DNA of 32,623 bases from NCBI GenBank assembly GCA_029935405.1, contig JAOZKH010000007.1, positions 17,448-50,070 of the forward strand, given 5' to 3'. Made by a program: the position numbers and the translations under genes. Numbering within the stretch: position 1 is the stretch's first letter; each line of letters begins with the position of its first letter. The notes under the pieces were generated by a model. The model searched no databases, had not been told where the DNA came from, and saw nothing but the letters and a program-made list of their open reading frames with translations. Source of the stretch: Vallitaleaceae bacterium (GTDB lineage: Bacteria; Bacillota; Clostridia; Lachnospirales; Vallitaleaceae). Of the stretch, positions 4,274 to 15,596 are shown in pieces.

Positions 4274-4280
4274 TTTGTAA

Positions 4281-4315
4281 AGTGCTCTATTTCATATGGA
4301 ATAGAGCACTTTTTT
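4281..4315 (+). terminator. Rho-independent terminator after the ilvB unit
   Basis: AGTGCTCTATT (4281-4291) and AATAGAGCACT (4300-4310) form a perfect 11-bp stem with an 8-base loop, followed by five T. It closes the ilvB/DUF2892 unit and insulates the sugar-sensing operon. Confidence 0.9.
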
Positions 4316-4333
4316 AAAAAAAGATAGTTTTGT

Positions 4334-4449: not shown

Positions 4450-5442
4450 ATGATGCAAAAAAGTAAATGGATTATCATTATATTAATATTTATAATCATA
4501 ACACTAGCTTTTAGAAATACATTACTTTTATGGGACTCTAGAGGATATTATTCATCAGATAATAGGAATGATGAATCAGCAGATCATATCATAGTAATTC
4601 TTGACAAAAATTCAGACTTACATGATGAAATTCTTACGGGAATTGATAATGTTGTACAAGAAAATAACATGGTCATTGAATTATGGTCACTAGATAAATA
4701 TCAATTGATAAAACAATTATCTATTGCACGTTTATCAAAACCTGATGGTATCATAGTTGAACCATTTTTATCTGAAGAATTTATAAATGAAATATCACAA
4801 ATAGAAAAATTAGGCATACCAGTTGTTACAATAGGTAAAACTAATATTGAAAATAATGAAATTGTTCATGTGGGATATAATCGTTATGAGTTTGGAAAAT
4901 TGATTGGGGAAATTATTAATCAATCCAATATATTTATTAATAATATTGTCGTGATTAATTCATTGAATTCAATTGAAAATGAAGAAGGCTATAAAAGTCA
5001 TCTGAGTTTAGGTATAAAAGAAAGTATAGAAACGAAAAATATGATTTCTATAAATGAATTGTATCCAGCAAATTTTTCGAAAAAGTCACAGTATAGTATT
5101 GACGAAATTGTTAAAAATTATGGTTCATCATGTTTGCTTATTACAACAAATGAAGATGATACATCTAAATATATTAAAGAAATACTGAATCAAAGGATCG
5201 AAAATCGTACACATATGATTGGATTCGGTTATAATGAAGATGTTATTGCATACGTTAATAGAGGTGTTATAAATTCAACAATTAGTATTAATGGAATTCA
5301 AATGGGACAAGAAGCTATTATTGCAATGAAGAAAAATTTAGATGGGCAAGTTATATCAGATACTATTCACGTTGAGATAAAATCTGTAACATTTGATAAT
5401 ACAGAAAAGGCTTGGTGGCAATTTGAAGATGAAATCAATTAA
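4450..5442 (+). CDS. Membrane-anchored periplasmic-binding-protein-like sugar sensor
   Basis: The 330-residue protein has one N-terminal hydrophobic anchor (about residues 6-27, rich in Ile/Leu) with no lipobox cysteine. It is followed by an extracellular Peripla_BP_4/LacI-type sugar-binding fold: GIIVEPF, LGIPVVTIG, and the hinge-like runs VHVGYNRYEFGKLIGE and MIGFGYNEDVIAYVNRGVI. It is probably not the transporter's own binding protein. It starts an operon and overlaps the histidine kinase gene, so it most likely passes sugar occupancy to that kinase, as XylFII does to LytS in solventogenic clostridia. It is clearly less XylF-like than the protein at 8423, so its ligand may differ. AGAGGTG lies at 4441-4447; ATG at 4450 or 4453 could start, and the second has the better spacing. 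Confidence 0.75.
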   Translation: MMQKSKWIIIILIFIIITLAFRNTLLLWDSRGYYSSDNRNDESADHIIVILDKNSDLHDEILTGIDNVVQENNMVIELWSLDKYQLIKQLSIARLSKPDGIIVEPFLSEEFINEISQIEKLGIPVVTIGKTNIENNEIVHVGYNRYEFGKLIGEIINQSNIFINNIVVINSLNSIENEEGYKSHLSLGIKESIETKNMISINELYPANFSKKSQYSIDEIVKNYGSSCLLITTNEDDTSKYIKEILNQRIENRTHMIGFGYNEDVIAYVNRGVINSTISINGIQMGQEAIIAMKKNLDGQVISDTIHVEIKSVTFDNTEKAWWQFEDEIN

Positions 5443-6865
5443 AGCGAAGATGCAACTGATTATATTTTTAAATATATTACTTGTAACCATTATTAGCAGT
5501 CTCTATATTATTACTCTAAAAAAGAATGAACAGCGATTAGTACTAATGAATGAGAAGAGTCGTCATATAATTAGTATTGAAGAAAAGATTCATAATACAG
5601 ATTATTATTTACAAAAATATATAAAAAATAAGAACTCATCAGATATTAATTATATGATGATTAATATTGATGAGCTTACCACGTTAATTAAAGAGCAAGA
5701 TAGCATTCTTTTCCCTAGACGATCGGATTTATTAATTAATAATATTCAAGAAATATCAAAAAATTATATTCAGCAAGTAGATCAAGTTATCTACTATAAA
5801 AGATTACAGAATTTGGAAAAGTATGAAGAATTGTATGCAGACACATTAATTGTAAAAAGTTATATAATTAACTATATTGATGAGGTGAAAACATTATTAC
5901 TAGAAGAAAATAGTGAAAATAATGGTGTGTTTATTGATAAAAATAGAATAGTACAATATAATAGTGCGGTAATGATTATAATGATAATATGTATGTCGTT
6001 ATATCTTGGAAGAATCACAACAGCAAATATAATAAAACCAATATTAGCTTTATCAAAAAGTGCTTCGAAAATCACAAAGGGCCATTTTGATATTCAAGAT
6101 GTGAAAGTTTATACAGACGATGAATTAGAGCTTCTCAGTAATACATTTAATAAAATGAAAAATTCAATCAGGATCTATATTGATGAATTGCATGAACAGG
6201 CTAATAATGAACTATTGTTGAGAGAAAAAGAAATTGAAAATTTGAAAATGAAAAATTCATTAGATAATGCAAAACTATATGCACTACAATCACAGATAAA
6301 TCCACATTTTCTATATAATACTATTAATGCAGGTGTACAAATGGCGATGATTGAAGGTGCTGATAATACAAGTGATTTTTTAGAACATATGGCTCGAATG
6401 TTTCGGTATAATCTTAAAGGATTAGATAAACCAACAAAAGTTATTGATGAAATTAATAATATTAGAAATTATTATAAATTGTTAAAAGTAAGATATAGAG
6501 ATTTGATTGAGTTCGAATTTATGGTGGATGAAACAATAAACAACTATACTATTCCACCATTAACGCTTCAACCACTTGTGGAAAATTCTATTATTCACGG
6601 ATTTAAATCAAAAAACACAGGAGGAAAAATTAGAATCATTACGTATGATGAGATGGATTTTTTCTATTTGATAGTATGGGATAATGGCGTAGGAATTGAC
6701 ACAAAAATTACGATAAAAGATAATAAATCTAATAGTGTTGGTTTGAATAATGTTATGGAAAGACTTGAGATTTTTTATGATCAAAAAGATATTATGACAA
6801 TAGAAAGTAAATTAAATGAATATACAAAAATAACGTTAAAACTACCAAAGAAGGTTATTATATGA
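5429..6865 (+). CDS. Sensor histidine kinase, LytS/YesM type
   Basis: This 478-residue membrane kinase has TM1 at about 10-30, an extracellular region of about 145 residues rich in helices, TM2 at about 178-196 and HAMP at about 197-250. A His_kinase domain follows with phospho-accepting H293 in QINPHFLYNT, then an ATPase domain with LQPLVENSIIHG, VWDNGVGID and SVGLNNVMERL. This is the standard order of the YesM/LytS family. The frame could start at 5393, but ATG 5429 gives a short 14-base overlap with the upstream gene, a GGTGG about 10 bases ahead and a normal N-terminus. The stop overlaps the response regulator start (ATGA), so the pair is co-translated. The stimulus is probably sugar bound by one or both anchored binding proteins encoded on either side of the kinase-regulator pair. 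Confidence 0.9.
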   Translation: MKSIKAKMQLIIFLNILLVTIISSLYIITLKKNEQRLVLMNEKSRHIISIEEKIHNTDYYLQKYIKNKNSSDINYMMINIDELTTLIKEQDSILFPRRSDLLINNIQEISKNYIQQVDQVIYYKRLQNLEKYEELYADTLIVKSYIINYIDEVKTLLLEENSENNGVFIDKNRIVQYNSAVMIIMIICMSLYLGRITTANIIKPILALSKSASKITKGHFDIQDVKVYTDDELELLSNTFNKMKNSIRIYIDELHEQANNELLLREKEIENLKMKNSLDNAKLYALQSQINPHFLYNTINAGVQMAMIEGADNTSDFLEHMARMFRYNLKGLDKPTKVIDEINNIRNYYKLLKVRYRDLIEFEFMVDETINNYTIPPLTLQPLVENSIIHGFKSKNTGGKIRIITYDEMDFFYLIVWDNGVGIDTKITIKDNKSNSVGLNNVMERLEIFYDQKDIMTIESKLNEYTKITLKLPKKVII

Positions 6866-8433
6866 TTAAAGTTTTTATTACTGATGATGAGCAAATTGTT
6901 ATTGACGGCATTCGATTTATTCTCGAAAAGGATTTAATGGAAGAAGTTGAAGTTATAGGAACAGCCAGATCTGGGGGAGAAGCCATTGAGAAATGCATGT
7001 CTATTAGCCCAGACGTATTTTTTATGGATATTCATATGTTGGGAATTAATGGATTAGAGACAATTGAATTTATTAAAAGACAACACCCAAAGGCAAAGTT
7101 TGTTATTATAACAGCTTTTGAGGAATTTGAATATGCCAAAAGGGCTTTGGAAATTGGCGTAAAGCATTATATGTGTAAACCCATAAACAGAAAAAAACTT
7201 TTTACTATAACTCGTGATTTAGTTAATGAAATAAATGTTGAGAATATCAGGATAAAAGGTAATCAAATCAATATAGATACATTACACAAAATATTGCCAT
7301 CATTAGATCAAAATCTTATATATGCTATTATAATGAATGACGGTTATAAACATGTTATGAAAGAATATCATACAATTCGTTTTACAAACACCAAATATGC
7401 TTATATGGTAGTGATTGAAATTGGACAAGATATGGATTTGTTTGACGCAACCAAAATAAAGCATCATGATATAATATATAATAAAATAGTTAATGAATTA
7501 AAGGCGAAATTCAAATGTGTAATAGGACCTTTGCTTGCTAATAGAGTTACAATGATGGTGTATTATAATCAACCAAAACTTGTACAACAAAAGAATGAAA
7601 ATCTTGATTTGCTACAAAATACTTTTTCTAATGAATTGAATCTAGTGTGTAAAATAACTTGTGGCAGAACGGATATATATGAATCAATGCACTTATCTTA
7701 CCAAGAAGCCATAAAACAACTTAGATTTACAAGTTTTGGGCAGTTTAATACAGAAACATTATTATTAGAAAACAACAAAGAGGATAAGAAAAGTATGATT
7801 ACCGATATACTAAGTGTTGTTGAAGATGGGAGAGTTGAAATTGTCATACCACTTATTAAGGCTTTAATGATAGAACTTAGAAGTTATGACTATGATTTCA
7901 GACGAAATAAAATAGCAGAACTATTACTACTTGTTTACGGCAAGGCATATTTAAATCAGGCACATAATGGTTTGATGCCTCTTGAATATATTAAAAATAT
8001 TATTGATTCAAAGGAAGATGAAAAACTAGAGTTATGGAGTAATGATATTATTGTATTGATAACTCGAAAAATATCAGAAATTAAAGAAAAACAAAGATCG
8101 AGAACCATGCTAATAGCTGAAAAATTTATATTAGAAAACTATATGCAGGACATTAGCTTAAACGATATTTCATCACATGTTGCAATCACGTCACAATATT
8201 TTTCGAAATTATTTAAAGAAAGTTATGGTAAAACTTTTGTAGAATATTTGACGGACGTAAGAATGAAAAAAGCCAAAAGTTTACTACGTGTAGGTAATCA
8301 TCCAATTAAAGAAATATGTTTTTTAATTGGATATAAAGATCCCAATTATTTTAGTCGATTATTTAAGAAATACAACGGAATAAAACCAAGTGACTATAAG
8401 AATTATATAGGGAGTGAAATGTATGAAAAATAA
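6862..8433 (+). CDS. YesN-type response regulator with AraC DNA-binding domain
   Basis: The 523 residues carry an N-terminal receiver domain (1-120) with the acidic pair D8/D9, phospho-acceptor D56 in FFMDIHM, and a conserved ITAFEEF and CKP lysine. A middle linker of about 300 residues follows, typical for YesN proteins. The C-terminal AraC double helix-turn-helix (about 420-518) includes NDISSHVAITSQYFSKLFKE and PIKEICFLIGYKDPNYFSRL. It is translationally coupled to the kinase (ATGA overlap), so it is its cognate partner. Likely targets are the xylF promoter and the promoters carrying the 26-bp element at 4334 and 13479; the second point is inferred from position only. Confidence 0.93.
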   Translation: MIKVFITDDEQIVIDGIRFILEKDLMEEVEVIGTARSGGEAIEKCMSISPDVFFMDIHMLGINGLETIEFIKRQHPKAKFVIITAFEEFEYAKRALEIGVKHYMCKPINRKKLFTITRDLVNEINVENIRIKGNQINIDTLHKILPSLDQNLIYAIIMNDGYKHVMKEYHTIRFTNTKYAYMVVIEIGQDMDLFDATKIKHHDIIYNKIVNELKAKFKCVIGPLLANRVTMMVYYNQPKLVQQKNENLDLLQNTFSNELNLVCKITCGRTDIYESMHLSYQEAIKQLRFTSFGQFNTETLLLENNKEDKKSMITDILSVVEDGRVEIVIPLIKALMIELRSYDYDFRRNKIAELLLLVYGKAYLNQAHNGLMPLEYIKNIIDSKEDEKLELWSNDIIVLITRKISEIKEKQRSRTMLIAEKFILENYMQDISLNDISSHVAITSQYFSKLFKESYGKTFVEYLTDVRMKKAKSLLRVGNHPIKEICFLIGYKDPNYFSRLFKKYNGIKPSDYKNYIGSEMYEK

Positions 8434-9445
8434 AATAATTATCGGAATAATCCTTTGCAGTGTTATATTTATTATTTGGATTAGCAATGAGATAAAAACA
8501 GGAAAAGTATTAGAAGAAAAGCCGTTTACTATTGGATTTTCTATTGATACAATGATTGTTGAACGATGGAAAAAAGATAAAGATATTATGCTGTCAAAAG
8601 CAAAAGAGAGAGGAATAGAAGTAATAACAATGAATGCCAATGAAGATAATGATCGTCAAGTAGAACAGCTTACAAAATTAGTTGAAGCAAATGTAGATGT
8701 AATTATTGTTATTCCTTTTGATAAAGATGGTATTAGTAATATTTTAAAAAAAGCTAAAAGTAAAGGAATTAAGATTATTAGCTATGATAGGTTAGTTATG
8801 GGCGCGCCAGTTGATGCATATATTTCTTTTGATAATATTCTCACGGGAAAACTTATGGCAGAACAATTAATTGAAAAGGTACCAGAAGGTAATTACATGA
8901 TTATTAATGGATCTTCTAAAGATAATAATAGTTATATGCTAAATAAAGGGTATTATGAAATAATAAATAAAACTGAAAATTCTAAAAATATTAATGTAGT
9001 ACAAGAAGTATGGGCGGAAAACTGGAGAGAAACAGTTGCTTATGAAGCAGTAATAAAAAGCTTAGAGGATGACTATAAAATAGACGCAATTATTGCTTCG
9101 AATGATAGATTGGCTGAAGAAGCCATTAGAGCTTTGGCAGAATTTGGTATGGTAAATAGCGTAAAGGTTGTTGGTCAAGATGCTGATATAAATGCATGCA
9201 AACAAATCATTGACGATGTTCAATTGGCAACGGTTTACAAACCTATATCAGAATTAGTAGATTTAACGTTAGATGTTGCATTGGCACTTAGAGAAGATAT
9301 AGTACTTGATGGATTCAAAGAAATAGATAATGATTTTGAGATTGTTAAATACTATACTATTAAGCCAATGCTTGTTAATAAAGACAATATGATGGATACC
9401 GTTATTGCAGATGGTTTTCATAAAGAAGAGGATATATATAAGTAA
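8423..9445 (+). CDS. XylF-like membrane-anchored sugar-binding protein (XylFII-type sensor)
   Basis: About 340 residues with an N-terminal hydrophobic anchor (IIIGIILCSVIFIIWIS) and no proper lipobox. It is followed by a XylF-family fold: FTIGFSIDTMIVERWKKDKD, ISYDRL, DAYISFDN, NGSSKDNNS, IIASNDRLAEEAI, VVGQDADI, and the end VIADGFHKEEDIY. E. coli XylF, from memory, ends in a very similar way. Compared with the XylF lipoprotein at 9606, this copy stays anchored, lies in the regulatory operon and overlaps the response regulator by 11 bases, so a sensing role is more likely than delivery to XylGH. A GTG at 8414 is in frame, but ATG 8423 has the better distance from AGGGAG. By analogy with XylFII-LytS, the ligand is probably D-xylose; this is an inference. 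Confidence 0.8.
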   Translation: MKNKIIIGIILCSVIFIIWISNEIKTGKVLEEKPFTIGFSIDTMIVERWKKDKDIMLSKAKERGIEVITMNANEDNDRQVEQLTKLVEANVDVIIVIPFDKDGISNILKKAKSKGIKIISYDRLVMGAPVDAYISFDNILTGKLMAEQLIEKVPEGNYMIINGSSKDNNSYMLNKGYYEIINKTENSKNINVVQEVWAENWRETVAYEAVIKSLEDDYKIDAIIASNDRLAEEAIRALAEFGMVNSVKVVGQDADINACKQIIDDVQLATVYKPISELVDLTLDVALALREDIVLDGFKEIDNDFEIVKYYTIKPMLVNKDNMMDTVIADGFHKEEDIYK

Positions 9446-9471
9446 TAGCATTTTTATCATATTCTGATAGT

Positions 9472-9517
9472 AAAGACTAATTTCTAATGAAGAACTATTG
9501 AAATTAGTCTTTGTTTT
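9472..9517 (+). terminator. Terminator after the sensory operon
   Basis: AAAGACTAATTTC (9472-9484) and GAAATTAGTCTTT (9500-9512) form a 13-bp perfect stem with a 15-base loop, followed by GTTTT. It separates the sensor/regulator operon from xylFGH, so the transporter needs its own promoter. Confidence 0.8.
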
Positions 9518-9540
9518 GTAGAAAATTATCCATGGAAGAT

Positions 9541-9605: not shown

Positions 9606-10676
9606 ATGAAACGAATATTATCAATGTTAGTTGTTATAGTATTGGTGTTTAGTATGGGTGGGTGTGCAAAAGAAGAAGTTGTTACAAAAGAAGAAACGAA
9701 AACAGAAGAAGAAATAAAAACAGAAGAAACGAAAACGGAAGACAAAATAGTAATTGGTTTGTCATTACCAACTCAATCAGAAGAACGTTGGGTAAGAGAT
9801 AAAGAGAGAATGGAGCAAGTTGCCGCAGATATGGGAGTGGAATTACTTGTACAAGTAGCAAATGATGACTCAGGGCAACAAGATTCACAAGCGAAAAATT
9901 TACTATCACAAGGTATAGATGTATTGATTCTTGCACCTCATGATGCAACTGCAGCTGCTTCAATTGTAGATGCAGCTCATGAAGAAGGCGTGCCAGTAAT
10001 ATCTTATGATAGACTTATTACAAATACAGAAAATCTAGATATATATTTGTCTTTTGATAATGTAAAAGTAGGCGAATTGCAAGGTGAATACATCACTAAT
10101 TTAGTATCAAAAGGTAAATATATTATTCTGGCAGGTGCACCTACAGATAATAATGCAAAATTGTTTAAACAAGGCGCAATGGTTTATATTCAACCATTAA
10201 TTGATTCAGGCGCTATTGAAGTAATAATGGATCAAGCTGTAGATGGATGGAAGCCTGAAAATGCACTTAAACTTGTAGAAAATGCTTTAACTATGGCTGG
10301 TAACGAAGTTGATGCGATTTTAGCTCCAAATGACGGGACTGCAGGAGGTGCAGTTGAAGCATTAGCAGCTCAAGGACTTGCAGGAAATGTTATTATTACG
10401 GGTCAAGATGCATCACTTGCAGGTGCAAAAAGAATTGTTGAAGGAACTCAAAGTATGACCATTTTTAAAGATACTAGAATTCTTGGTGCAGCGGCTATTG
10501 AAACTGCAATAAATCTAGCAAAGGGAGAAGAAATAGTTGGCTTAAACGGTGGTGTTGATAATGGAGTCAAAATTGTACCTTCTGTACTTTTAACACCTTT
10601 TGCAGTCGACAAAGATAATATTGATGAATTACTAATTGATAGTGGATACTTGAGAAAAGAAGATGTATATAATTAA
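9606..10676 (+). CDS. xylF: D-xylose-type ABC transporter, substrate-binding lipoprotein
   Basis: The 356 residues begin with a lipoprotein signal peptide (about 1-19) and lipobox MGGC with C20 as the lipid-carrying cysteine. A charged Lys/Glu/Thr-rich tether (about 22-46, repeating KTEE units) lifts the domain off the membrane. The binding domain shows SEERWVRDKERM, ISYDRLI, IYLSFDNVKVGELQ, PTDNNAKLFKQG, VDGWKPENALK, APNDGTAGGA and GQDASLAGAKRI. These are characteristic of XylF and the related multiple-sugar binding protein ChvE; the DGWxPENALK stretch favours XylF. It would capture sugar outside the cell and deliver it to XylGH. The start is fixed by ATGGAGG 8 bases upstream. Exact sugar specificity is not proven. 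Confidence 0.88.
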   Translation: MKRILSMLVVIVLVFSMGGCAKEEVVTKEETKTEEEIKTEETKTEDKIVIGLSLPTQSEERWVRDKERMEQVAADMGVELLVQVANDDSGQQDSQAKNLLSQGIDVLILAPHDATAAASIVDAAHEEGVPVISYDRLITNTENLDIYLSFDNVKVGELQGEYITNLVSKGKYIILAGAPTDNNAKLFKQGAMVYIQPLIDSGAIEVIMDQAVDGWKPENALKLVENALTMAGNEVDAILAPNDGTAGGAVEALAAQGLAGNVIITGQDASLAGAKRIVEGTQSMTIFKDTRILGAAAIETAINLAKGEEIVGLNGGVDNGVKIVPSVLLTPFAVDKDNIDELLIDSGYLRKEDVYN

Positions 10677-10727: not shown

Positions 10728-10764
10728 AATATAGGCGAGGACCAGTGGGTCTCTCGCCTATATT
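10728..10764 (+). repeat. Long stem-loop between xylF and xylG
   Basis: AATATAGGCGAG (10728-10739) pairs perfectly with CTCGCCTATATT (10753-10764). Inside, GACC (10740-10743) pairs with GGTC (10748-10751), leaving an AGTG loop and one bulged T, so the stem has 16 pairs. It ends directly against the xylG ribosome binding site AAAGGTGG (10765-10772) and has no T-run. It probably protects or terminates part of the transcript so that XylF is made in excess over XylGH. Confidence 0.75.
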
Positions 10765-10777
10765 AAAGGTGGTTAAT

Positions 10778-12295
10778 ATGTCAGAAATTATTTTAGAAAT
10801 GATGAATATAACAAAAGAGTTTCCTGGAGTTAAGGCTCTTAATAAAGTAAAGTTAAAATTAGTAAAAGGTGAAATACATGCTTTAGTCGGAGAAAATGGA
10901 GCTGGTAAATCAACGCTTATGAAAGTGCTGAGTGGGGTGCATTCATTTGGAACATATGAAGGTGACATTATACTAAATAATAAAATTTGCCAATTTAAAA
11001 ATATAAAAGATTCTGAAAATTCTGGTGTTGCAATAATTTATCAAGAACTCGCGCTTGTTAAACAGATGAGTATAGCAGAAAATATATTCCTTGGTAGTGA
11101 AAAAATGAAGGGTGGGTTGATTGATTGGCATCAAACAACTTATGAAGCACAAAAAGTAATGAATGAAGTTGGGCTTACAGATATACCACAGACAAAAATT
11201 TTTAATATTGGAGTGGGCAAACAACAACTTGTCGAAATAGCAAAGGCATTGACAAAAGATGTTAAAATTATAATATTTGATGAACCAACAGCTGCGTTAA
11301 ATGAAACAGAGAGTTCTAATTTGTTAGACCTAATAAGAAGGCTTAAAGAAAAAGGTGTAACCTGTGTTTACATTTCCCATAAATTAGAAGAAGTTAAAGA
11401 AATTGCAGATACTATTACAATACTTAGAGATGGAAATTCCATTGAAACAAGAAAAAATGATGCATCATTGACAGAAGACCTAATAATAAAAATGATGGTT
11501 GGAAGAACATTAGAAAATAGATTTCCAAGAGAACATAGAAAAATAGGAAAACCAATATTCGAGGTGATAAATTGGACAGTGCATAATCCAGAATTACCAG
11601 ATAAAAAAATTATTGATGATATAAGTTTTAGTGTTAATAGAGGTGAAATCATTGGAATTGCTGGTCTTATGGGAGCGGGAAGAACTGAACTTGCATTAAG
11701 CTTAATTGGCGCTTATGGAATTGGAGTGTCTGGTACTGTGAAACTAGAGAGTAAAGAAATAGTAATGAAGTCACCTAAATCTGCAATTGAACAAGGAATT
11801 TGTTATTTGACAGAAGATAGAAAAGGAAATGGATTAATCCTAAATATGCCGATTAATAAAAACATTACATTGGCAAGTGTTGATAAAATTCTCAATAATG
11901 GACTAATAAATCAACATGAAGAAGAAAAAAATGTACGACATTATGTTGAAACCCTAGGCATAAAAACGCCAAGCACTGAGCAACATGTAAAAAACTTGAG
12001 TGGAGGTAATCAACAAAAAGTATCTCTTGCAAAGTGGCTTATGGCAAAACCAAAGGTGCTCATATTAGACGAACCAACTAGGGGAATAGATGTAGGTGCA
12101 AAATATGATATCTATTGCATTATGAATAAACTAGTTAGAGAAGGTGTAGCTATAATAATGATATCTTCAGAATTACCTGAAATTATAGGAATGAGTAATA
12201 GAATTATTGTTCTCAATGAAGGAAAAGCGGTAACAATTGAAGATGAAAATGTTAGTCAAGAAAAAATCATGTACTATGCTACAGGAGGAAAATAA
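10778..12295 (+). CDS. xylG: D-xylose-type ABC transporter ATP-binding protein
   Basis: This 505-residue CUT2-family ATPase has two fused ABC domains. The first has Walker A GENGAGKST (38-46), Walker B IIFDEPTAAL and a degenerate signature (GVGKQQLVEI). The second has an altered Walker A GLMGAGRTE with Arg in place of Lys (about 296-304), LSGGNQQKV and LILDEPTRGID. One standard and one degenerate site is normal for XylG/RbsA/MglA-type proteins. It would energise sugar import through XylH. An in-frame GTG at 10745 lies inside the hairpin loop and is rejected; ATG 10778 follows AAAGGTGG by 5 bases. The stop and the xylH start overlap as TAATG, so translation is coupled. Confidence 0.9.
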   Translation: MSEIILEMMNITKEFPGVKALNKVKLKLVKGEIHALVGENGAGKSTLMKVLSGVHSFGTYEGDIILNNKICQFKNIKDSENSGVAIIYQELALVKQMSIAENIFLGSEKMKGGLIDWHQTTYEAQKVMNEVGLTDIPQTKIFNIGVGKQQLVEIAKALTKDVKIIIFDEPTAALNETESSNLLDLIRRLKEKGVTCVYISHKLEEVKEIADTITILRDGNSIETRKNDASLTEDLIIKMMVGRTLENRFPREHRKIGKPIFEVINWTVHNPELPDKKIIDDISFSVNRGEIIGIAGLMGAGRTELALSLIGAYGIGVSGTVKLESKEIVMKSPKSAIEQGICYLTEDRKGNGLILNMPINKNITLASVDKILNNGLINQHEEEKNVRHYVETLGIKTPSTEQHVKNLSGGNQQKVSLAKWLMAKPKVLILDEPTRGIDVGAKYDIYCIMNKLVREGVAIIMISSELPEIIGMSNRIIVLNEGKAVTIEDENVSQEKIMYYATGGK

Positions 12296-13461
12296 TGGAA
12301 AAGATACAATTAATAAAATCAGCTATAAAGTCAAATTTGCAACAATATACAATGTTTTTTGCTCTAATTGGTCTGATGATAATATTTACTATTTTTACAA
12401 ATGGTACATTTTTAATGCCTAGAAATCTTTCTAATTTATTGCTTCAAACGTCTCATATAGCCATATTAGCTTGTGGAGTTGTTCTTGTTATAGTTTCTGG
12501 TCATATAGATTTATAAATAGGATCTGTTGTTGGATTTACAGGAGCAGTGGCTGCTATTTTACAAGTTAATTTTGGTTTGGGGACTTTTATAACAATAATA
12601 TTAACTTTAGTTGTTGGCGCAGTTATCGGACTATGGCATGGTTATTGGGTGGCATATCAAGAAGTCCCTGCCTTTATTGTTACATTATCAGGAATGATGG
12701 CCTTTAAAGGAGGCTTGTTATATATTACAAAGGGAGCAACAATTGCTCCAATGAATGATAGCTTTAAAGCAATTAGTCAAAAGTATTTACCTAATATATC
12801 AGGATTTGACATACATATAACTACAATTATAGTAGGTGTTATCATAGGGATATTATTCATTATTAAGAATATTAAAAACCGAAAAGATAGAATGGAGTAT
12901 GGTTTCCAAATAAAATCTATAAATATATTTGTGTTAAAACAAATAATCACTTTTTCTCTCATTATGCTACCGTTTATTGCAGTAGCGTTATATAATGGAC
13001 TTCCATACGTAATTATTCTTGTTTTTGTTGTTGGGTTTATTTATACAGTCATTACAACTAAAACAAAATTCGGGAGACATGTTTATGCCATTGGTGGAAA
13101 TAAAGAAGCAGCAATTCTTTCAGGTATTGAAACAAAACTAGTTAATCTTAAAATATTTATTTCAATGGGAATATTAAGTGCACTTGGTGGAATTGTTTAT
13201 ACAGCAAGATTAAATGCAGCAACTGCAGGTGCTGGGTCTGGAATGGAACTCGAAGTTATTGCTGCAGCAATTATTGGTGGAACATCTACTCTAGGTGGTG
13301 AAGGTACCATTTTTGGCGCTATTATCGGAGCATTGGTTATGGCAACACTTAATAATGGTATGAGTTTAATGGGAGCACAACCAGATATACAATATATTAC
13401 TAAAGGGCTTATATTGTTATTGGCAGTGTGGATTGATATTTCTTCAAGAAAAAATATTTAA
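12295..13461 (+). pseudogene. xylH: D-xylose-type ABC transporter permease interrupted by a TAA codon
   Basis: One continuous frame of 388 codons matches XylH-type CUT2 permeases (about 390 residues), except that codon 74 (12514-12516) is TAA. The stop falls in SGHIDL-stop-IGSVVGF, where the family has Ser (GHIDLSVGS), so a single TCA-to-TAA change explains it. Upstream there are two hydrophobic segments; downstream the rest of the membrane domain is intact, including VPAFIVTLSGMMAFKGG, GGNKEAAILSGI and AAIIGGTSTLGGEGT. GTG 12547 is the next possible start, with AGGAG only two bases ahead, which is too close. There are no other defects, so the mutation is recent, is a sequencing error, or is tolerated by read-through. 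As read, the importer lacks its permease. Confidence 0.85.
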
Positions 13462-13612: not shown

Positions 13613-14557
13613 ATGCAGTTTAATTATGAATTTATTAAACATCAAAAAGGATTACCATTTAAAACATATTTTGTAAATGTAAGACAAATACCATACCATT
13701 GGCATTCTGATTTGGAAATAATGTGGGTATTAAAGGGAAGTGTTAAAATACAATCTAAAAATGGAGAGTATTTACTTACTCAAGGTGATGTATTTATTGT
13801 AAATACATACGATGTACATAGTTTGTATAATACAGAAGAAGATAATATTGTTTTAGGAATACAGGCGAATACACAATTAATTAAAAATATAGTATGTTCA
13901 TATAGTGAAATATGTTTTTTAGAACAATATATTAAAACAGATAATCCAAAGGGAAAACAGCTAAAAATATTCATGGCAAATATTATGTTAAGTATGCATG
14001 CAGAAGGAATAGCAGCATTGTTGAATTCAACAGCTGTTTTCTATAATATGCTTGCAGAATTAGTAAATCAAGTAAAATATAAATCTTTGAGCCAGAATTC
14101 ACTTAAAATAAAAGAACATGATTTTGAGAGGTTGCAAGGTATTATATCTTTTATTAATGAAAATTATCAGTATAAAATTTCACTGCAACAAATAGCTGAT
14201 ATGTATTATATTAGCCGTTATCATTTGTCGCGTTTTATAAAAAATAAATTAGGAATAGGATTTCAAGAATTTTTGAATCGAGTAAGATTAACTCATGCAG
14301 TAGAATTTATATATAATACTGATATTACAATTATTGATATAGCAGAAAATTGTGGATTTTCAGATGTTAAATACTTAAATAAATTAGTTAAAGAGTCATA
14401 TGGTATGACGCCATTACAACTTAGAGTTAAATTTAGACAATCGCATACCCCTGATAATAATACTAAAGAACAATTTACAGATATTTACAATGAAAGCCAT
14501 AGATTAGAAGATTCCATGGAAGGTTTAGAAGTATTGAAGGCATTTCTAAAAAATTAA
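13613..14557 (+). CDS. AraC-family transcriptional regulator with cupin domain
   Basis: The 314 residues carry an N-terminal cupin-like sensor (about 20-95: PYHWHSDLEIMWVLKGSVKI, LTQGDVFIVNTYDVHS) and a C-terminal AraC double helix-turn-helix (about 185-285: SLQQIADMYYISRYHLSRFI and DIAENCGFSDVKYLNKLVKE). It probably binds a small sugar-like or carboxylate ligand in the cytoplasm and controls its own operon. The methyltransferase-family gene follows 28 bases later with no terminator, so the two are co-transcribed. The shared 26-bp element and the inverted repeat upstream tie it to the sugar locus. The ligand is unknown. Confidence 0.88.
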   Translation: MQFNYEFIKHQKGLPFKTYFVNVRQIPYHWHSDLEIMWVLKGSVKIQSKNGEYLLTQGDVFIVNTYDVHSLYNTEEDNIVLGIQANTQLIKNIVCSYSEICFLEQYIKTDNPKGKQLKIFMANIMLSMHAEGIAALLNSTAVFYNMLAELVNQVKYKSLSQNSLKIKEHDFERLQGIISFINENYQYKISLQQIADMYYISRYHLSRFIKNKLGIGFQEFLNRVRLTHAVEFIYNTDITIIDIAENCGFSDVKYLNKLVKESYGMTPLQLRVKFRQSHTPDNNTKEQFTDIYNESHRLEDSMEGLEVLKAFLKN

Positions 14558-14585
14558 CGAAGTTTAAAAAATATGGAGGTTTACA

Positions 14586-15596
14586 ATGAAATCAATGTCA
14601 TCATATGAAAGAGTCATGAATAGGCTAGAAGGAAAACCAGTTGACAAGGTCCCAAATATGAATATTATTATGGCTTTTGCAGCGAAACAAATAGGCGCTA
14701 CCATGAAAGAGTTTTGTACGGATTATAGAGTATTAGTAGAAAGTAAAATATATTGTGCAAATGAATTTGGCATTGATACAGTATCAGTTATTAGTGATCC
14801 AATGCGTGAAGCTCATGGGTTTGGTGCAAAAGTTATATTTCCTGAGAATGATGTACCTTTTTGTAAAGAACATTTAATAACAGTTCTTAGTCAAATAAAG
14901 GATTTAAAGCCAATAAATCCAATGAATAATGAAAGAATGATTGATAGAATTCGTGCAGTCGAAAGCTTGAAAAAACAGGTGGGAGGTAAGATTCCAATCA
15001 TCGGTTGGGTAGAAGGTGCATTAGCAGAGGCAGCTGATTTACGTGATATTTCATATGTTATGATGGATCTAATGATGGATGGAGAGCGTATGAAAGAGTT
15101 TTTTGAAATAATATATGAACAACAAAAAATATTTGCAAAAGAGCAAATTAATGCAGGAGCAGATTTTATTGGCATTGGAAATGCCGCTGCTTCTTTGATT
15201 GGACCTGCTCTTTACGAAGAATATTGTCTAGAGTTTGATACGAGAATAATTAAAGATATTCATGATATGGGTGCAAAAGCCAAACTGCATATTTGTGGTA
15301 ATACAGAGCCAATACTTGAATTAATTGCAAAAACACAAGCGGATATATTTGACGCGGACCATGTGGTAGATTTTTCAAAAGCCATTGAAGCGTTTAAAGG
15401 TACAAATACAGTTGCTAACGGTAATCTTGATCCTGTTGCACATATGATGCGAGCAGATGAGCAAATAATTACTGAAGAAGTCAAGAAAAGATTGGACTTA
15501 GCAGATGAGAGAACACTAATATCTGGTGGGTGTGAGGTTCCAGCAGCAACATCAGGAGAAATAATGAAACGTATGAATGAAATGTTATATTTATAA
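14586..15596 (+). CDS. URO-D / methylcobamide methyltransferase family protein
   Basis: This 336-residue protein belongs to the uroporphyrinogen decarboxylase superfamily (SSYERVMNRLEGKPVDKVP start, TIM barrel). The zinc ligands typical of the MtaA/MtbA/CmuA methyltransferase branch are present: H235 and C237 in KLHICGN, and C316 in ISGGCEVPAATSGE. This argues against true heme-pathway HemE. Such proteins move methyl groups between a corrinoid protein and a thiol or folate acceptor. No corrinoid protein, substrate methyltransferase or reductive activator is in the window, so the partner must be elsewhere or the role is different. The start follows a strong TGGAGG site. It forms an operon with the AraC regulator, which suggests substrate-induced use, perhaps of a methylated compound. 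Confidence 0.8.
   Translation: MKSMSSYERVMNRLEGKPVDKVPNMNIIMAFAAKQIGATMKEFCTDYRVLVESKIYCANEFGIDTVSVISDPMREAHGFGAKVIFPENDVPFCKEHLITVLSQIKDLKPINPMNNERMIDRIRAVESLKKQVGGKIPIIGWVEGALAEAADLRDISYVMMDLMMDGERMKEFFEIIYEQQKIFAKEQINAGADFIGIGNAAASLIGPALYEEYCLEFDTRIIKDIHDMGAKAKLHICGNTEPILELIAKTQADIFDADHVVDFSKAIEAFKGTNTVANGNLDPVAHMMRADEQIITEEVKKRLDLADERTLISGGCEVPAATSGEIMKRMNEMLYL

Follow-up and report, generated by a model that had tools for sequence, protein, structure and literature searches.

The stretch of DNA analysed here, which we call the window (32,623 nucleotides of a Vallitaleaceae bacterium; assembly GCA_029935405.1, contig JAOZKH010000007.1, positions 17,448 to 50,070 of the forward strand), carries a cassette in which a LytS/YesM-type sensor histidine kinase and a YesN-type response regulator lie between the genes for two different substrate-binding proteins (SBPs), SBP-A upstream and SBP-B downstream, beside a XylF-G-H-type ATP-binding cassette (ABC) importer with a transport SBP of its own. 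From the window and its relatives we computed the gene order and coupling of this cassette, the families of its proteins, a sugar pocket that is kept in SBP-B and lost in SBP-A, purifying selection on SBP-A, and about two recruitments of SBP-B. We lean, if only slightly, towards a reading in which SBP-B would be the sugar receptor and SBP-A a sugar-blind adaptor on the kinase, the importer being switched on in response.

The first three genes and their relation to XylFII-LytS-YesN

The window SBP-A matched the solved structures of Clostridium beijerinckii XylFII (5xsd; E-value 4e-6) and GanP (6e-10), and a profile built from 21 SBP-As returned GanP (9e-65), XylFII (7e-58) and AraP (1e-48) among its best matches in the PDB. 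When its structure model (mean predicted local distance difference test, pLDDT, 87.9; N-terminal helix at residues 3-31) was compared with the PDB by fold, GanP was again best at Z 27.4, with XylFII at Z 25.6 and many sugar-binding proteins at 24-26. The kinase profile matched the kinase domain of GanS (2.5e-63) and the ectodomain of LytS (5xsd_L; 2.3e-5), and GanS was also nearest to the kinase model by fold, with 36% identity. This model, weak overall (predicted template modelling score, pTM, 0.43), shows four helices in the ectodomain of about 145 amino acids (aa) that goes with the two transmembrane segments (TMs) of the window kinase. A Foldseek search with it returned mainly kinase domains, and the LytS ectodomain was not found among the 50 matches listed; the likeness to LytS therefore comes from the profile. 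On the strength of these profile and model matches we take the first three genes to encode a system of the XylFII-LytS-YesN type.

The first-pass annotation had seen the counterpart of XylFII in the downstream, XylF-like protein. By sequence, profile and fold that counterpart is instead the upstream SBP-A, and we rejected SBP-B for the role: among solved structures it matches Escherichia coli XylF (3m9w) at 1.9e-66 and XylFII at a mere 4e-4. SBP-B also falls under the NCBIfam equivalog cut-offs (270 bits vs 504, and 249 vs 389.55), as does the window's transport SBP (339 vs 389.55). The length of the kinase ectodomain does not vary with the presence of SBP-B, with medians of 152 aa in cassettes that have it and 153 aa in those without.

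The sugar pockets of the two binding proteins

For SBP-B, the eight xylose-contact residues of E. coli XylF fit the 3m9w alignment in every letter and number. All eight are kept in 163 of 164 SBP-Bs; in the window they are R48, D122, R123, N169, W201, N227, D253 and K273 (numbering of alignment A1).

For SBP-A, we compared the 164 cassettes with an SBP-B, 10 without one, and XylFII, GanP and AraP at four pocket positions: D103 of XylFII and the equivalents of the RbsB pocket residues R141, D215 and Q235. In the presence of SBP-B, none of the four residues is kept in 130 SBP-As, one in 14, two in 6 and three in 14, the last all from Bacilli; where SBP-B is absent, all four are kept in 8 of 10. 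The aspartate of XylFII D103 itself is found in 4/164 SBP-As with SBP-B vs 8/10 without, and the window SBP-A, with a glycine at that site, has none of the four. The cassette L120, from Clostridium lacusfryxellense, is an intermediate case in which D103 is retained. Within the SBP-As that accompany an SBP-B, median retention was 14% for pocket columns vs 52% for other columns conserved in the reference proteins (p 8e-4). Sequence distance was also considered: for pairs of 25-35% identity, agreement at the four positions was 100% without SBP-B (13 pairs only) vs 22% with it (1738 pairs).

SBP-A is nevertheless not a pseudogene, a possibility that we rejected because the ratio of nonsynonymous to synonymous substitution rates (dN/dS) is about 0.09 among relatives. 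In 12 close pairs the median dN/dS was 0.094 for SBP-A, indicative of purifying selection, with 0.055 for the kinase and 0.073 for SBP-B. Outside Bacilli, SBP-A has a newly conserved stretch in its C-terminal lobe (T204, Q209, D213 and V217, XylFII index), which is mostly gone from the window copy.

These pockets bear on the idea, put forward in the first-pass annotation, that the kinase might integrate two sugars or that one binding protein might antagonise the other. Under this idea SBP-A would have rebuilt its pocket for another ligand, SBP-B would bind xylose, and the kinase would weigh both. Purifying selection on SBP-A would suit it, as would the cleft positions equivalent to F15, F16 and F214 and a new aspartate (XylFII index 247), all fairly conserved, and in the LevQRST system both binding proteins are described as influencing sugar specificity (PMC3043104). 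A rebuilt pocket should, however, exceed the average in conservation, and the four key pocket columns do not, since at 35-50% identity the agreement there between pairs of SBP-As is 45%; positions of the D103, Q235 and N64 type are among the more variable in the protein. The lost columns now vary at about the same pace as the remainder of SBP-A, which makes a conserved rebuilt pocket unlikely to judge from the alignments. With SBP-B present, SBP-A is usually without the known contacts and SBP-B keeps all of its own, so that the view of both proteins as sugar sensors is not supported, and integration of two sugars appears less likely than a receptor joined to an adaptor. We regard it as improbable.

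Coupling of SBP-B to the sensor genes

Gene spacing ties SBP-B to the regulator rather than to the importer. The gap between regulator and SBP-B had a median of 1 bp and was at most 30 bp in 139 of 164 cassettes, and that between SBP-B and the transport SBP had a median of 181 bp and was under 50 bp in 0/119. With scored starts the medians became 11 bp and 203 bp; starts were taken from the longest open reading frame (ORF) or from a ribosome-site score, and gap lengths are approximate. We note that an SBP-B was counted as present where its gap to the regulator was at most 130 bp and no XylG-like gene lay directly behind, so that the coupling figures are partly definitional. Hairpins occurred in 51/116 gaps between SBP-B and the transport SBP vs 3/116 shuffled ones. 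A repeat that the regulator might bind was also sought in these gaps; the words enriched there came from ribosome-binding sites and hairpin stems, and TCCTA/TCCTG showed no prominent spacing. Of the 140 cassettes for which 4 kb or more is covered, 31 have no XylG-like gene following, and in these SBP-B is still found behind the regulator (18 of these 31 have a XylG-like gene upstream). By its position, then, SBP-B appears to belong to the sensor operon.

The anchors differ among the three binding proteins. SBP-A has a TM without a lipobox in 142 of 164 cassettes, SBP-B a lipobox in 113/164 and a TM in 50/164, and the transport SBP a lipobox in 107/119. The subset with most members of the window's family, made up of the window and loci L023-L042, has a TM-anchored SBP-B in 15/19 and a lipoprotein as transport SBP in 14/14.

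It might be argued that SBP-B merely serves the importer as another transport binding protein and is co-transcribed with the regulator, sensing being left to SBP-A alone or to the kinase. SBP-B is indeed XylF-type, with a complete pocket, usually a lipobox, and transport XylFs as its nearest relatives. This account seems unlikely to us in view of the coupling of SBP-B to the regulator instead of the importer, the lipoprotein that the importer already owns, the persistence of SBP-B where importer genes do not follow, its TM anchor in most of the subset just given, and the lost pocket of SBP-A.

Occurrence of the four-gene form

Starting from the window's own genome and 40 relatives, an SBP-A match was found in 20 of the 41 genomes searched; 18 of these 20 neighbourhoods have the order SBP-A, kinase, regulator, SBP-B, and the remaining two stop at a contig edge. 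A scan with SBP-B matched 78 of 392 genomes of the order, the named genomes giving 80 kept loci, and the cassettes collected through SBP-B span Clostridia, Bacilli and Spirochaetota. Removal of those with an identical kinase stretch reduced 192 cassettes of SBP-A, kinase and regulator to 180 unique ones, 164 of which have the four-gene order, a proportion that overstates the frequency of SBP-B because loci L043-L182 were fetched through SBP-B itself. The recurrence of the order in these 164 cassettes shows that it is not a matter of chance, and we rejected the possibility that it is unique to the window genome.

A fairer count comes from a survey of the class that started from SBP-A. It matched 68 of 391 genomes, and 54 of the 81 listed places were taken, namely those of at least 185 bits, leaving aside the window itself and seven places whose genomes had been sampled before. 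Three of the 54 could not be judged (L194, L215 and L233); in the 51 evaluable loci SBP-B was tight behind the regulator in 41, at 328 bp in one and absent in 9. The gene-order survey that the first-pass annotation had proposed therefore finds the four-gene form to be common. The ten cassettes without SBP-B used in the pocket comparison omit L109 and loci at contig edges, and L105 (gap 328 bp) was placed in neither group.

Eight cassettes of the collected set lack SBP-B and have a following binding protein; in them it lies no nearer than 158 bp and immediately before XylG. They resemble the six-gene arrangement that Sun et al. reportedly described in 2015 in C. beijerinckii, with XylFII-LytS-YesN beside XylFGH and a binding protein immediately before XylG. 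Two variants were seen in passing: at L183 (5032-6993) kinase and regulator appear to be fused within the cassette, since a single 653-aa ORF scores against the profiles of both (266 bits for the kinase, 427 for the regulator), and in six Clostridia cassettes (L220-L222, L224, L225 and L227) XylG is followed by two XylH-like permease genes in tandem.

Evolutionary history

In a tree of sampled SBP-Bs, those from Clostridia form one clade (support 100) near the XylFs that precede XylG and XylH, and those from Bacilli form a second, which groups with a transport XylF from Paenibacillus (L144). The clostridial clade, for which 39 of 150 non-Bacilli rows were sampled, is independent of the way in which presence of SBP-B was defined. 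The two clades suggest that SBP-B was recruited into such operons about twice. It is about an even chance, in our judgement, that the receptor role was handed over on these occasions, once in Clostridia and once in Bacilli: a transport XylF would have been captured as receptor, after which the XylFII protein would have lost its site and been kept as a pseudo-receptor adaptor.

The divergence of the proteins was compared by partial rank correlation of distance matrices, controlling for the kinase core, the regulator parts and the transport SBP. The values were 0.40 for SBP-A with SBP-B, 0.25 for the kinase ectodomain with SBP-B and 0.22 for the ectodomain with SBP-A, and in none of the three did any of 100 within-clade permutations reach the observed correlation. 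The ectodomain and the transport SBP gave 0.09, computed without the transport SBP as a control. These correlations lend weak support to a complex of SBP-A, SBP-B and kinase.

The proposed mechanism and the points against it

We propose that SBP-B, recruited to the sensor genes as a XylF-type protein, would bind xylose or a close aldose, and that SBP-A, its pocket lost, would rest on the four-helix extracytoplasmic domain of the kinase as a sugar-blind adaptor. Once closed on its sugar, SBP-B would dock onto the complex of SBP-A and kinase and switch the kinase, and the phosphorylated regulator would activate the adjacent XylF-G-H importer. We infer in this the docking of SBP-A on the kinase, a contact of SBP-B with one or other of these two, an activating sign of the signal, and the importer as its target. 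A XylFII protein without the D103 aspartate does still dock on LytS, since 5xsd is entitled a XylFII-LytSN complex of the mutant D103A, includes the LytS chain, and has a printed sequence that differs at that site. An alanine occupies the D103 position in 14/14 SBP-As from Bacilli, and according to the alignment their change is the same D103A substitution as that of the laboratory mutant.

Several observations weigh against a receptor SBP-B with an adaptor SBP-A. SBP-B is usually a lipoprotein, as transport SBPs are, and its nearest neighbours in the tree are transport XylFs; its distances also correlate with those of the transport SBP (0.34). The SBP-As of Bacilli retain three of the four pocket positions, and the fairly conserved cleft positions (F, W and Y) and new aspartate mentioned above leave room for a changed SBP-A ligand. 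At L236, SBP-A is degenerate and no SBP-B lies by the regulator, yet the protein is nested in the pocket-less clade whose cassettes contain SBP-B; that SBP-B may have been lost later or moved. On the SBP-A tree, a quick one with long branches that include the window's, presence of SBP-B and state of the pocket each change about three times, with 2 supported independent pairs and a non-significant sign test, and the association of SBP-B with pocket loss thus rests on about two events.

The window copy itself adds two further points. Its SBP-A is an outlier, with the longest branch in its tree (2.07) and 13-24% identity to 61 relatives, and the permease gene of the importer is interrupted by a stop; for these two reasons it is not the best example of the system. 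They could also be read to mean that the system is dying in this genome, SBP-A drifting and the importer broken, with nothing special encoded. Such decay could account for the window copy and not for the family, in which pocket loss is general among cassettes with SBP-B and dN/dS in close pairs is near 0.1; the window kinase and SBP-B, moreover, show ordinary identity to their relatives, and SBP-B has all eight contacts. We consider decay very doubtful as an explanation. As a separate observation, the window SBP-A is without residues that are near-universal in its relatives (aspartate 131, arginine 137 and a D/N/V/G stretch in the C-terminal lobe).

The cassette of the window

The coordinates of the window cassette, its neighbours and L236 are collected in Table 1. 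Consecutive genes of the cassette overlap, by 14 bp (SBP-A and kinase), 4 bp (kinase and regulator) and 11 bp (regulator and SBP-B). Pfam finds Peripla_BP_4 in SBP-A (2.3e-17) and SBP-B (5.3e-48), His_kinase and HAMP in the kinase, and Response_reg and HTH_18 in the regulator. SBP-A and SBP-B have one N-terminal hydrophobic segment each (residues 8-26 and about 5-23) and no lipobox, from which both are predicted to be membrane-anchored. SBP-B is without XylG and XylH directly behind it, a hairpin and another SBP intervening. Because hairpins bracket the cassette on both sides, the four genes look like a single transcription unit, set apart from the XylF-G-H genes that start at 9606. Separate transcription of SBP-B was considered and rejected, as SBP-B overlaps the regulator and a hairpin sits only 3' of it. 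A promoter scan gave a site count no higher than in shuffles (70 vs 68.3). Gene order, overlaps, hairpins and conservation thus agree with the first-pass annotation that two different anchored binding proteins share a unit with the kinase and regulator, anchoring being a sequence-based prediction; as far as the DNA itself indicates, neither protein is unanchored and neither is separately transcribed.

Table 1. Coordinates of the cassette and associated features (positions in the window, except for L236)
Feature	Position	Strand	Description
Terminator-like hairpin and T-run upstream of SBP-A	4279..4318	+	fold at 4279-4312; 15-bp stem, -20.3 kcal/mol, z -5.57
SBP-A	4450..5442	+	330 aa; from the ORF list; predicted TM-anchored binding protein of XylFII/GanP/AraP type with degenerate pocket (G129 at XylFII D103)
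Sensor histidine kinase	5429..6865, from its ATG	+	478 aa; two TMs, predicted four-helix extracytoplasmic domain, HAMP, His_kinase
YesN-type response regulator	6862..8433	+	523 aa; receiver and AraC helix-turn-helix
SBP-B	8423..9445, from its ATG	+	340 aa; XylF-type binding protein with predicted N-terminal TM
Terminator-like hairpin downstream of SBP-B	9471..9520	+	fold at 9471-9513, z -2.2
Transport SBP, XylF-like lipoprotein	9606..10676	+	lipobox MGGC
XylG/GguA-type ABC ATPase	10745..12295	+	family match
XylH/GguB-type permease gene with in-frame TAA	12295..13461	+	family match; TAA at 12514-12516
L236 SBP-A, kinase and regulator	11501-8414	-	used in the SBP-A tree and pocket comparison

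The permease stop lies in the motif HIDL*IGS and may be a genuine lesion or an assembly error. Further downstream (13613-15596), and unrelated to the cassette, a gene for an AraC-type regulator with a cupin domain adjoins one for a URO-D/MtaA-like methyltransferase.

Relation to known systems

The cassette resembles the XylFII-LytS-YesN and XylFGH genes of C. beijerinckii in having a TM-anchored protein of the XylFII family ahead of a LytS-type kinase, a YesN regulator and an adjoining XylFGH-type importer. It differs in the second, XylF-type protein coupled to the regulator, and in a XylFII relative that has lost D103 along with further residues of the pocket. The closest profile match of SBP-A is GanP of Geobacillus stearothermophilus, with AraP of that species also near by sequence and fold, and the kinase is nearest to GanS; GanP and AraP, in contrast, are sugar-binding sensor proteins, and PDB titles give GanP with glucose and galactose. 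We know of no second SBP in the GanP/GanS and AraP operons. SBP-B shares with E. coli XylF all eight contacts, as set out above, and is unlike it in being TM-anchored in the window, coupled to a regulator and under the equivalog cut-offs.

The first-pass annotation is right that XylFII-LytS-YesN systems, as known, have a single binding protein. The published LevQRST system of Streptococcus mutans (PMC3043104) has two: its two-component system lies between ABC-type sugar-binding proteins that are each necessary if signalling is to be normal, LevQ being required for complex integrity and LevT for selectivity. Two-SBP sensors are therefore already known in kind. The likeness is one of arrangement, a kinase-regulator pair with an SBP gene on either side. 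The same paper gives LevS up to five predicted TMs with little extracellular part, a gene order of levT-S-R-Q, and as targets fructanase and phosphotransferase system genes with no ABC importer nearby, whereas the kinase here has two TMs and an ectodomain with four predicted helices, and its neighbour is an ABC importer. In CuaDSR of Ruminiclostridium cellulolyticum (PMC10384115), a dedicated sensor SBP, a kinase and an AraC-type regulator control an ABC importer that has a separate SBP, an arrangement like the present one; unlike it, the sensor SBP is a single one and binds its sugar.

A search of the open-licence literature for a XylFII without its pocket, or for a sensor of the SBP-B type, found no report in the material available. 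The nearest remark, from a report on Parageobacillus thermoglucosidasius (PMC13068155), is that a ChvE-like SBP, YesM-YesN and a second, non-lipoprotein SBP occur together and might interact. As far as these searches show, two things are new: XylFII-type systems usually come with a second protein of XylF type, and where it is present the pocket of the XylFII relative has been lost.

Were SBP-A confirmed as an adaptor, most XylFII-like proteins of this group (41/51 in the class survey) would be misannotated as sugar receptors, and the published XylFII-LytS mechanism would be the minority form within the group. Because docking and ligand binding would be divided between two proteins, the route by which the signal of an SBP arrives at a four-helix kinase ectodomain could be tested directly in this system. 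A binding protein that no longer has a ligand, and that selection maintains as an adaptor in signalling, would be to receptors what a pseudoenzyme is to enzymes.

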